Source: Cyanobacteriota bacterium (GTDB lineage Bacteria > Cyanobacteriota > Vampirovibrionia > LMEP-6097). From it: 33,484 nt of DNA. The notes under the pieces are model-generated. The model had not been told where the DNA came from, searched no databases, and worked only from the letters and a program-made list of their open reading frames with translations. Numbering within the stretch: position 1 is the first letter of the stretch; each line of letters begins with the position of its first letter. The position numbers and the translations under genes were made by a program. Below are positions 3,491-26,456 of this stretch, piece after piece. Location of the stretch: assembly GCA_027618255.1 (NCBI GenBank), contig JAQCFG010000018.1, positions 1-33,484 on the forward strand, given 5' to 3'.

Positions 3491-3518
3491 TTGACCCCAC
3501 AGCAATTGATGAGATAAT
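3491..3518 (+). promoter_or_regulatory. sigma-70-type promoter of the transglycosylase gene
   Basis: TTGACC (3491-3496) and GATAAT (3513-3518) are 16 nt apart. The -10 box ends 7 nt before the ATG at 3526, so transcription should start at or within a base or two of the start codon. There is no Shine-Dalgarno. Confidence 0.6.
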
Positions 3519-3525
3519 ACTAATC

Positions 3526-5706
3526 ATGTCGCAGCAAAAAACTCCTAAAAAAAAGGGATTAAAGCAATTCTCACACTCAATACAAGTGTTGTTCAAAAAA
3601 AAAGAATTCAAGTATTTTAGTTACATACTTGCAGCTTTTATTATTCTTGGTTCTGCTGCACTTTATTATATAGAAACTCAAGGGATTTTCAAATACCCAC
3701 AAGTTAGTCAAGCACAGTATCAAGAATATGATGAAGCTATCAGGCATGCCATCCAAACTTCTAAGCAAGACACCACTGAAGCTATAACAATCTTAGAAAA
3801 TCTTCCAACGCTTCCTAAATTATTAGAAAATCGCAGGAACTATATACTTGCCAAGCTTTATCAAATAATTAATGAACCTGTTCTAGCATTTTTGCACGCC
3901 TACGATATCGAACAAGATTATTTGACCAAATTCAGTCTATCAATGCGTTCCAAGATAGCTGAACAAATTGGACTAGAAGGAATTGTGGTTAAGGATTTAG
4001 GTTTCCTTGCCAAGAAATTCCCGCAAGACCCGCGCTTTCTCTATGAATTATCAAAGTCATATTCACGACAAAATAGAGTAGTAGAAGCGCGTAAGAGCTT
4101 TAAAAAGATACAAACTTTATTTCCTGATTCTGATTATTCTCTGGGCTCTGAATACTATCTTGCTAATTTATCAAAAGAAAATGAAAAGAAATTTCCACGT
4201 CTTAGAACCTACCTAACTAAAAGCCCGAATGGCAACTTAGCTTACTTAATTTCTGATCAAATTCAAAGTCTAGAGCCCATGGAACGTAAAGAATTTGATG
4301 ATCTGAGTAATTACATGGCATTGAGTTATTACAACAGAGAAGACTATGACAAAGCAATTAAACTTTTTAATAAGGAATTAGATAATCCAGATCTTTACCT
4401 AGAAGCTTACGCAAACACTCTTGCCAAACTTCATCGCAAACAAGAAGCAAGAGCTCTTTTACTTGAAAAACTCCCTGAAATCAAAGATTTAGACAAGGCT
4501 TCCCGTTTAGTTGAATTAATTTGTGATTTGTCAGATAAATCTCAAGCAATAGCCAATCTCCAAGCATTAGAGAATAAACTAGCAAAGATTAAAGACAAAA
4601 TACTCTGGGAATTAGCCAAGCGTACTAAGACCAAAGAATCATATCAACTGGTTTACAAAAACTATCCCAAGAGTTTCTACGCAGCTGAAAGTATGTCACA
4701 AGTATTTTGGAAAGAATATGAAAGAAAGAATTATCATGGTGCAATTGAAATTTTCAAAGTGCATTGGAAGACTTACCCAAGTACTAATTCTCATCCCTTT
4801 GTTGCTTTCTGGGCAGCCAAAGCTTACGACAAACTTAATCAACATGATGATGCCGTAACTGCATTGCACAATCTAATCATCGAGCATCCACGTGACTATT
4901 ACGGCTATAGAGCAGAACAAATCATCAACGGCGACAAGGATTGGTTCAAGTTACCAAGCTCAAATCACTTTAACAGTCTGCCTGACTGGGACTGGCCGGA
5001 GGTTTATAAAGATGCCAAGGTTGCAGAACTCTATGGAGCTGATGTACTAGAACTAAGCAAAATTGGTGAATATAGTTTCTTATTAGAAAATGAAAACCAA
5101 GAAGCTCTAAACTTCGACAAAAATTTTAAGATGTGGCTTTATGCTCAAGCTGATGATTACCTTAAAGCAATTAGCACAGCATATTTTTCACTTGATAAAA
5201 GTGCTCCCGTAAATTACAACGAGATCAAATTCATTTATGCATTCCCAATGCCATACTCAGATATCATTACTGATGAAATAAGCAAAAACCGCAAAATCGA
5301 TCCGATGCTAGCTCATTCTTTAATTAAACAAGAATCTCGCTACCAAAAAGATATAGTAAGCAAGGTTGGTGCAATTGGTTTGATGCAATTGATGCCATAT
5401 ACAGCGCGAGCACTAGCTCGCGATATGGGGATGCAAGCACCACAAGTTAGTGACTTGATGCAACCAGAGATTAATATCAAACTTGGGGTTCGCTACATGG
5501 AAGATGTATTTCAGACTTTTGATAATAATATGATTCACGCTATCGCATCTTATAATGCTGGACCAGTTGCAATCAAAGGTTGGAAGAAGCGTTTCGATAA
5601 ACTTGATCCTGACGAGTTTATCGAAAATATTCCATATGACGAGACCAAGACTTATGTTAAGCACGTTCTAAATAATTACTGGGTCTACAAGCAACTCTAT
5701 CATTAG
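3526..5706 (+). CDS. membrane-anchored Slt-type lytic transglycosylase
   Basis: This protein probably cleaves peptidoglycan between MurNAc and GlcNAc, forming 1,6-anhydro-MurNAc. It has 726 residues. A single transmembrane anchor lies near residues 29-48 (YFSYILAAFIILGSAALYY). A long helical, TPR-like superhelix fills about residues 60-580, as in the ring of Slt70. The C-terminal catalytic domain carries LIKQESRY, with the likely catalytic Glu at residue 603, then GAIGLMQLMPYTA and IASYNAGP. It is longer than E. coli Slt70, mainly because of the anchor. The gene stands just before fliP, so it could help open the wall for flagellar assembly; this is inference from position. Its stop codon lies in a hairpin (5702-5731). 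Confidence 0.9.
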   Translation: MSQQKTPKKKGLKQFSHSIQVLFKKKEFKYFSYILAAFIILGSAALYYIETQGIFKYPQVSQAQYQEYDEAIRHAIQTSKQDTTEAITILENLPTLPKLLENRRNYILAKLYQIINEPVLAFLHAYDIEQDYLTKFSLSMRSKIAEQIGLEGIVVKDLGFLAKKFPQDPRFLYELSKSYSRQNRVVEARKSFKKIQTLFPDSDYSLGSEYYLANLSKENEKKFPRLRTYLTKSPNGNLAYLISDQIQSLEPMERKEFDDLSNYMALSYYNREDYDKAIKLFNKELDNPDLYLEAYANTLAKLHRKQEARALLLEKLPEIKDLDKASRLVELICDLSDKSQAIANLQALENKLAKIKDKILWELAKRTKTKESYQLVYKNYPKSFYAAESMSQVFWKEYERKNYHGAIEIFKVHWKTYPSTNSHPFVAFWAAKAYDKLNQHDDAVTALHNLIIEHPRDYYGYRAEQIINGDKDWFKLPSSNHFNSLPDWDWPEVYKDAKVAELYGADVLELSKIGEYSFLLENENQEALNFDKNFKMWLYAQADDYLKAISTAYFSLDKSAPVNYNEIKFIYAFPMPYSDIITDEISKNRKIDPMLAHSLIKQESRYQKDIVSKVGAIGLMQLMPYTARALARDMGMQAPQVSDLMQPEINIKLGVRYMEDVFQTFDNNMIHAIASYNAGPVAIKGWKKRFDKLDPDEFIENIPYDETKTYVKHVLNNYWVYKQLYH

Positions 5707-5731
5707 ACTTGTTTTGATCTACAGGTCTAAT
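5702..5731. repeat. hairpin of the TAGACTTGT repeat family over the slt stop codon
   Basis: The arms ATTAGACTTGT (5702-5712) and ACAGGTCTAAT (5721-5731) pair over 11 positions with one G-T, leaving an 8-nt loop. The stop codon of the transglycosylase gene lies in the left arm. Another core, AATAGACTTGT, follows at once. Related copies are near 10099, 17170, 26250 and 26366. Confidence 0.6.
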
Positions 5732-5740
5732 AGACTTGTC

Positions 5741-5776
5741 ACGACCCTACTAGAGAAATCGTTTTTCAGCGTGTCC
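5741..5776. repeat. imperfect hairpin repeat, copy 1 (GTGTCC family)
   Basis: This stretch shares ACTAGA, CGTTTT and TTCAGCGTGTCC with positions 20042-20076. Both copies can fold with GAAA/TTTC-type arms. The function is unknown; both copies lie beside gene ends, so a terminator role is possible. Confidence 0.5.
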
Positions 5777-5804
5777 ATAAGGGAATAATAGCGATAGAAG
5801 GCAA

Positions 5805-25619: not shown

Positions 25620-25641
25620 TTCAACAACTCTAGCAAAACTC

Positions 25642-26235
25642 TCACCTTTGAGCCATCACATAAGGAAACTCTTGCCTTGGTCCAGACCATCGATTTCTTG
25701 GTTGGTAACAAGCATTAGCAGAAGCAACAAAACTCGGCACATGATCAAAACTCAGTTGCTTAAAGGGTCCGAGGTCAGCGAGCTGCAAGCTACGTTGCTT
25801 AGTAATTTGAATTAAATTATCTAAATTAAATTCAATATAGCGTTTCTCTTTATCAGTATAATCAGAACCAAGATCATCTCGAACAAATGTCAAAAATTCA
25901 ACTCGTTCTTTCACTGGCAAGTCATTAAATTTATTCAAAGCATCAGAAAGCAAAACCTGCGCTGCAAGCAAACATTTGCTCTGATGAATAAGTTCATTGC
26001 TACCATTACAAAGCCCAACTACACAACTAGACAAAAAATCCGTACTCTCTGGCTGCTTAGTCACTGCACCAGCTTGCCAATCATCAAACAAACGCAAGCC
26101 CTTGTTTATGACAGCAACAAACTCAGGTTTAGTTCTGTGCAAACGTGAATCCACAGCTCGGTGAACCGCTTCTGGAGCTACGACTTGATCTAGACTATCT
26201 CCCCTGAGGGTAGAAAGTGCTATTAGTGCCACCAA
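25642..26235 (-). CDS. hypothetical protein, about 197 aa
   Basis: I do not recognise this protein. It is soluble and mostly helical, with a few Cys (SSCVVGLCNG) and a C-terminal basic/aromatic stretch (NRWSGPRQEFPYVMAQR). The start could be the TTG at 26235 or the GTG one codon later. On the minus strand TAGAAT lies about 13 nt upstream. It shares a likely operon with the 2H phosphoesterase. Confidence 0.6.
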   Translation of the reverse strand: MVALIALSTLRGDSLDQVVAPEAVHRAVDSRLHRTKPEFVAVINKGLRLFDDWQAGAVTKQPESTDFLSSCVVGLCNGSNELIHQSKCLLAAQVLLSDALNKFNDLPVKERVEFLTFVRDDLGSDYTDKEKRYIEFNLDNLIQITKQRSLQLADLGPFKQLSFDHVPSFVASANACYQPRNRWSGPRQEFPYVMAQR

Positions 26236-26365
26236 ACTTAAAGGTCGAATTCTAATAGACTCATTGCGAAAGCCCCCTCGAGCTTCACTACGAAGTTTTG
26301 CAGGATATCTAAATTCATTATCTACGTTGACAATAGATCTATTATATAAGATCTTTGTAAAATTG

Positions 26366-26396
26366 GCATTAGACCTGTTTCAAAACAAGTCTATTG
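26366..26396. repeat. TAGACTTGT-family hairpin before the alpha/beta hydrolase
   Basis: TTAGACCTGTTT and AACAAGTCTA form a stem with one mismatch. Read on the minus strand it contains ACAATAGACTTGTTT, found also at 10098-10112. A second family member, starting TCTAATAGACTCATTGC, is at about 26249-26270. Confidence 0.55.
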
Positions 26397-26443
26397 TATA
26401 CTTTCAGGATAACAACTGTGCAGAACCCAGTTTATTATCACCT

Positions 26444-26449
26444 TATAAT
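26444..26449 (+). promoter_or_regulatory. -10 box 7 nt before the alpha/beta hydrolase start
   Basis: TATAAT is followed by TGAAACA and the ATG at 26457. No convincing -35 box or Shine-Dalgarno is seen. A leaderless mRNA is predicted. Confidence 0.5.
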
Positions 26450-26456
26450 TGAAACA

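Follow-up and report, generated by a model that had tools for sequence, protein, structure and literature searches.

Does transcription of many genes in this genome begin at the start codon itself? The question arises from a contig in which gene after gene carries, a few nucleotides before its start codon, a hexamer resembling the -10 box of sigma-70-type promoters. The window, that is, the whole stretch of 33,484 nucleotides that was analysed, is contig C18 of G000, a 1.99 Mb MAG of the Cyanobacteriota class Vampirovibrionia, the non-photosynthetic sister group to the Cyanobacteria (104 contigs, 95.7% complete, 39% GC). Two named Candidatus Melainabacteria MAGs encode proteins with 91% and 69% identity to the Slt of this genome. 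Our reading, to which we give a probability of about 0.88, is that the boxes belong to leaderless promoters, made of an extended -10 element without consensus -35, from which the mRNA would start at or near the start codon.

Boxes before the genes of the window

The boxes are listed below, where N7, for instance, means seven nucleotides between box and start codon. Two Shine-Dalgarno (SD) motifs are given for contrast.

3513..3518, + strand: slt -10 box GATAAT, TGn extension, N7 to ATG 3526
16 nt upstream of GATAAT, + strand: possible slt -35 TTGACC; the TTGACC..GATAAT block is kept in stretch L003
5796..5801, + strand: fliP SD-like AGAAGG (contrast), ATG 5805
7206..7211, + strand: fliR SD AAGGAG (contrast, operon-internal), ATG 7223
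8026..8031, + strand: -10 box TACAAT of the gene at 8038 (no Pfam match), N6 to ATG 8038
10083..10088, - strand: HAD-family hydrolase -10 box TATATT, TGA extension, N7 to ATG 10075
10228..10233, + strand: tsaD -10 box TATAAT, N6 to ATG 10240, at the centre of a 32-bp perfect palindrome
15529..15534, - strand: trkH -10 box TATAAT, N7 to GTG 15521
15622..15627, + strand: rpmH -10 box TACAAT, TG extension, N10 to ATG 15638, short leader
19387..19392, - strand: DoxX-like gene -10 box TATAAT, N6 to ATG 19380
21328..21333, + strand: nadA -10 box TATACT, TGC extension, N8 to ATG 21342
23274..23279, - strand: yhcC-type radical SAM gene -10 box TATAAT, N8 to ATG 23265
23359..23364, + strand: AAA_14/DUF4143 ATPase gene -10 box TATAAT, N9 to GTG 23374
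26444..26449, + strand: alpha/beta hydrolase -10 box TATAAT, N7 to ATG 26457
27705-27710, + strand: alternative TATAAT of the hipA-like gene, which would mean a short leader (N19)
27717..27722, + strand: hipA-like gene TATATT, N7 to ATG 27730
31201-31206, - strand: box of the near-identical inverted copy of IS-like orfA, start codon 31191
33419..33424, + strand: IS-like orfA TATACT, N9 to ATG 33434

An earlier note on this DNA had announced eleven such boxes between positions 3513 and 26456. Ten of them are found there at the spacings given, and the eleventh, TATACT-N9 of IS orfA, exists but lies outside that interval, with its start codon at 33434. The claim that none of these genes has an SD was nearly right, except that AGG, GGGGG and GAGAG occur near the starts of the IS copy, the DoxX-like gene and the yhcC-type gene, respectively. 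fliP and fliR do carry SD motifs, as the note had said, and the short-leader gene that it named rpmF indeed shows TACAAT-N10-ATG, but is rpmH (L34), directly before rnpA.

The candidate promoter and start of IS-like orfA are held within a 90-bp inverted repeat (31141-31230 and 33395-33484, 98.9% identical) found on both sides of the gene at 32003. Because the second arm of this repeat, with the orfA start, ends at the contig end, the contig breaks within a repeated element. Another contig-end repeat is seen at the contig start (window 1-72), where the first 66-72 bases match contigs C12 and C4 almost exactly.

A genome-wide peak six to nine nucleotides before start codons

Genome-wide counts cover 802 kb of the 1.99 Mb genome. 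Start codons were set by a simple gene caller, based on codon usage and blind to upstream sequence, which returned 678 genes spanning 85% of the 802 kb; boxes were defined by fixed T1, A2 and T6, with no more than one mismatch allowed at the central positions of TAtaaT. With these motif-blind starts, 142 genes have a box at N6-N9, compared with 18.7 expected (P 1e-73). The counts are 3 at N4, 10 at N5, 51 at N6, 38 at N7, 30 at N8 and 23 at N9, over a background of about 4.5-4.7 per position, so that the edge between N5 and N6 is sharp and N6 is the mode. The peak keeps its shape over the 802 kb if counting is limited to one ATG per ORF, the first. In a first, annotation-free test covering 433 kb and ORFs of at least 100 aa, exact TATAAT was present before ATG 2, 17, 12, 7, 3 and 0 times at N5 to N10, while the 19 permuted hexamers of the same composition gave about 0.8 per position at the same spacings. 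A genome-wide -10 peak at this distance had been set beforehand as the test on which the earlier claim would stand or fall; it is found, at N6-N9, and the widespread pattern is real and genome-wide.

For the window by itself, with coding potential as the sole guide to start codons, a box at N6-9 is present in 7 of 30 genes, the rate expected by chance being 2.6% per gene (P about 1e-5). This is a lower bound, because the caller did not find the starts of 8038, trkH and nadA, and the GATAAT of slt falls outside the box set. The genome-wide shares are lower bounds as well, since the caller mis-sets some starts, these three among them. The N6 mode places the first T of the box at -12 from the start codon, and the boxes thus show the signature of the TA-led leaderless genes of Zheng et al. 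2011, a TANNNT whose first T lies about 12 nt from the start more often than by chance.

Beyond the mode, the boxes decay in a tail over N8-N14, and a minority, at N10-N20, corresponds to short leaders. Matches to a position weight matrix (PWM) fall from 6.3% per position at N6-9 to 0.45-0.58% at N21-60, in a scan whose training set was the N6-9 boxes and which under-counts leadered promoters of other types. Because matches beyond N20 are near background, most detectable promoters of this kind would be leaderless or very short-leadered.

An extended -10 element without a -35

When the upstream regions of 141 box genes are aligned on the box, 70% of them have G at -2 and 49% have T at -3, while within the hexamer A occupies the fourth position in 93% and the fifth in 89%, giving a consensus of roughly tGnTAtAAT. 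TGn precedes the box in 36% of box genes compared with 4% of boxes inside ORFs, and the G at -2 is seen in only 20% of the latter. The share of boxes with this G drops with distance from the start codon, from 70% at N6-9 to 48% at N10-20, 33% at N21-60 and 24% at N61-200. Only the three bases adjoining the box stand out, all other upstream columns remaining at or below 0.08 bits: none of the columns in the 141 aligned regions is conserved as a -35 element would be, and a -35 search yielded a weak bump at spacer 18, where 15 of 141 regions have at least 4/6 matches. The upstream G or TGn together with the box is, by its sequence, the extended -10 element of sigma-70-type promoters, and we infer that a -35 is functionally dispensable at these promoters. 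The extended -10 without -35 had been missed in the earlier note, as had its occurrence in three families (see below).

In E. coli, the motif of sigma region 3.0 makes the contact to the TG of the extended -10. This region (HxxE motif) is preserved in two sigma factors here, read from stretches L010 and L074, both of which have HMVETIN (RTIRVPVHMVETIN).

A similar box also precedes the mature 5' end of some tRNA genes (L077, L009, L068) by 5-10 nt, for instance TTGCTATAAT-N5 at tRNA-Met (L077, 11378). These boxes look as if transcription began at or near the tRNA itself.

Palindromes around boxes

The start of tsaD lies in a loopless 32-bp perfect palindrome (10215-10246, stem 16) centred on the -10 box. 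At the same gene, G001 (L179, 92% identical) has a different sequence that again forms a long inverted repeat around TATAAT, and whose left arm matches the new gene start. Such a palindrome could possibly result from concerted change by template switching, or be an operator. Other inverted repeats surround the boxes of the ATPase and hipA genes. As a feature of leaderless promoters, however, inverted repeats are not specific: the share with stems of at least 8 is 7.8% among box genes, 5.4% among the remaining leading genes and 1.4% among shuffles. Short palindromes with AACTTCGTTT recur in the intergenic DNA of these genomes (window 10170-10215; L003), possibly as a dispersed repeat family.

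Boxes favour leading genes, Shine-Dalgarno motifs operon-internal genes

In a cross-validated search for PWM matches at N6-9, the hit rate is 25% for divergent leading genes and 28% where the upstream gap exceeds 100 bp, compared with 8% for genes at most 20 bp from an upstream co-directional gene (operon-internal), a concentration in first or single genes as is typical of leaderless genes. About a quarter of the genes that head transcription units thus appear to use such promoters. Conversely, the SD excess rises from 16% in divergent leading genes to 40% in operon-internal ones, and box genes are nearly devoid of SD (3/141 compared with 107/517 other genes, P 3e-9), again as expected of leaderless genes. 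A general loss of SD of the Bacteroidetes kind is ruled out by the 40% excess in operon-internal genes and by the intact anti-SD of the 16S 3' end (...GGATCACCTCCTTTT). CA-rich second codons, considered as a possible leaderless signature, were rejected because they differ only mildly.

Conservation and distribution in the class

Among 56 orthologue pairs with five other genomes of the family, box status agrees more often than expected (9/15 versus 6/41, Fisher P 0.0015). At 45-76% protein identity, orthologues retain a box in 9/15 cases, with spacings that vary from N6 to N9, even though the rest of the upstream DNA has diverged. In the family genomes, boxes precede nadA in 7/8 (N8-N11), yhcC in 6/8 (N7-N10; G003 and G007 are without box), tsaD in 4/7 (N6-N9) and trkH in 2/5, the latter box being absent outside the two closest genomes.

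The class was sampled as eight families, given the arbitrary labels f1 to f8, of which f1 contains the window genome. The excess at N6-9 amounts to 19% of genes in the genome itself, 10% in other f1 genomes, 14% in f6 and 5% in f4, where a sharp spike stands at N6 (23 compared with about 6). It is significant at N6-9 in the genome itself, in all five other f1 genomes and in both f6 genomes; in G001, of the same genus, significance is weak (P 0.02), and in f4, 3/4 genomes are significant at N6. No excess at N6-9 was detected in f2, f3, f5, f7 and f8 (73-124 genes sampled per family), nor was any excess or N6 peak in E. coli and three cyanobacterial genomes, presumed photosynthetic from their size. 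Base composition does not explain this distribution, since the peak is missing from the f5 (26% GC) and f7 (33% GC) samples, whose AT content is higher than that of the genome studied. One f5 genome, G027 (26% GC; L045-L049), has almost no SD peak and no -10 peak before its start codons.

A single origin in the class is ruled out as a simple account by an RpoB tree, which does not group f1, f4 and f6; because these families are not one clade, repeated gain or loss is implied. More tentatively, and at slightly less than even odds, we propose that several lineages of the class rely chiefly on a leaderless, -35-independent extended -10 promoter for their leading genes, an arrangement either ancestral and lost repeatedly or of several origins.

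Probable leaderless promoters and their alternatives

Sigma-70 promoters have their +1 about 7 nt downstream of the -10 box. At N6, +1 should therefore fall on the A of ATG, while N7-N9 would give leaders of 1-3 nt. The housekeeping RNA polymerase would recognise roughly tGnTAtAAT without a consensus -35, and transcription would start some 6 nt downstream of the box, on the A or G of the start codon or at most about 3 nt before it. The cliff below N6 fits a need to keep the whole start codon, the A of ATG not being upstream of +1. Transcripts beginning at the start codon would then be mRNAs without 5' UTR, and therefore without an SD site. 70S ribosomes with initiator tRNA probably initiate on the 5'-terminal AUG or GUG, as we infer for this organism from the preference of leaderless mRNAs for 70S ribosomes in E. 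coli reported in literature cited in PMC3890552. Downstream operon genes would be translated in the usual way through SD, with the anti-SD of 16S retained for this purpose.

Could the boxes act in translation instead? AT-rich upstream signals exist at non-SD genes of several phyla (PMC5397173; PMC3160421), and the boxes might be such a signal, recognised by ribosomal protein S1 or resembling a Kozak sequence as in Bacteroidetes, in mRNAs that have leaders. A translation signal, however, has no need for T1, A2 and T6 plus an upstream G, would not shift along with the box, and has no reason to prefer leading over operon-internal genes, and the permuted hexamers of equal AT content produce no such peak. 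The extended -10 G, the leading-gene preference and the exclusion of SD thus argue for promoters, and we find a ribosome signal highly improbable. Slightly less probable still is a general mis-assignment of start codons, with the real starts further downstream behind SD motifs. Single starts can err, and the motif-blind caller did place those of 8038, trkH and nadA downstream, but the peak stays in register with the start codon, SD motifs are depleted in box genes, and alignments of the tsaD, nadA and yhcC orthologues begin at identical or neighbouring start codons. As for chance in an AT-rich genome, combined with selective choice of start codons, TATAAT does have 29 copies in the window, many within ORFs. 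The genome-wide count with motif-blind starts (P 1e-73), the permuted-hexamer control and the more AT-rich f7 and f5 samples without peak rule it out, and we grant it next to no weight.

The most serious competitor accepts the boxes as true -10 elements, but holds that they mostly produce short leaders (about 1-10 nt), or that a second promoter upstream makes the key, leadered mRNA. The decaying tail over N8-N14, the N10 of rpmH and the N8-N11 of nadA in relatives speak for it. The mode, however, is N6, and matches at N21-60 are near background, so that we judge this variant unlikely, if clearly less so than the others. Altogether, the reading of the boxes as leaderless promoters, already proposed in the earlier note, is supported by the peak, the extended -10 G, the leading-gene preference and the exclusion of SD.

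Comparison with known leaderless systems

Abundant leaderless genes are known mainly from Actinobacteria, Deinococcus-Thermus and archaea. In Corynebacterium glutamicum, RNA-seq found 33% leaderless mRNAs, from sigma-A promoters with weak -35; as here, many of these are extended -10 promoters (TGnTATAAT), and both AUG and GUG starts are used (PMC3890552). That case concerns an actinobacterium and is shown by RNA, whereas ours concerns an AT-rich member of the Cyanobacteriota/Vampirovibrionia read from sequence alone, with an estimated leaderless share, about 19% of genes, below the 33% of C. glutamicum. In Deinococcus-Thermus, almost one gene in three has a -10 motif about 6-7 bp ahead of its start codon; there too, other genes have SD and the -10 motif is sufficient without -35 (PMC12340547). 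Although it works alike, our pattern does not belong to theirs: their motif is TANNNT, mostly TACACT (PMC12340547), and ours is tGnTAtAAT (TATAAT/TAAAAT with a strong upstream G), in an unrelated lineage, the Melainabacteria. About 440 mRNAs with a 5' UTR below 10 nt were mapped experimentally by dRNA-seq in the spirochaete Leptospira interrogans (PMC5243855), where our evidence comes from DNA only. Photosynthetic Cyanobacteria, of the same GTDB phylum, have few leaderless transcripts, unlike the genome studied here: 19 transcription start sites were judged leaderless in Synechococcus elongatus UTEX 2973 (PMC6091082). In the 953-genome survey of Zheng et al. 2011, many cyanobacterial genomes are described as relying neither on SD nor on leaderless starts (PMC3160421).

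A literature search linking "leaderless" with Melainabacteria or Vampirovibrio, which mostly left subscription papers outside its reach, returned nothing. Leaderless promoters are of a known kind, and their occurrence in this class appears to be undescribed, although priority is not certain.

In practice, start codons in these genomes may be misplaced by gene finders built around an SD or a leader, an error that the motif offers a way to correct. The extended -10 without -35 also suggests a minimal promoter for future genetics in this group. With leaderless genes at about a quarter of leading genes, beside lineages without them, the mode of initiation would have switched within one phylum, which opens it to comparison there; and if the architecture indeed prevails in several lineages of the class, the phylum would provide a natural series in which leaderless translation was gained and lost.
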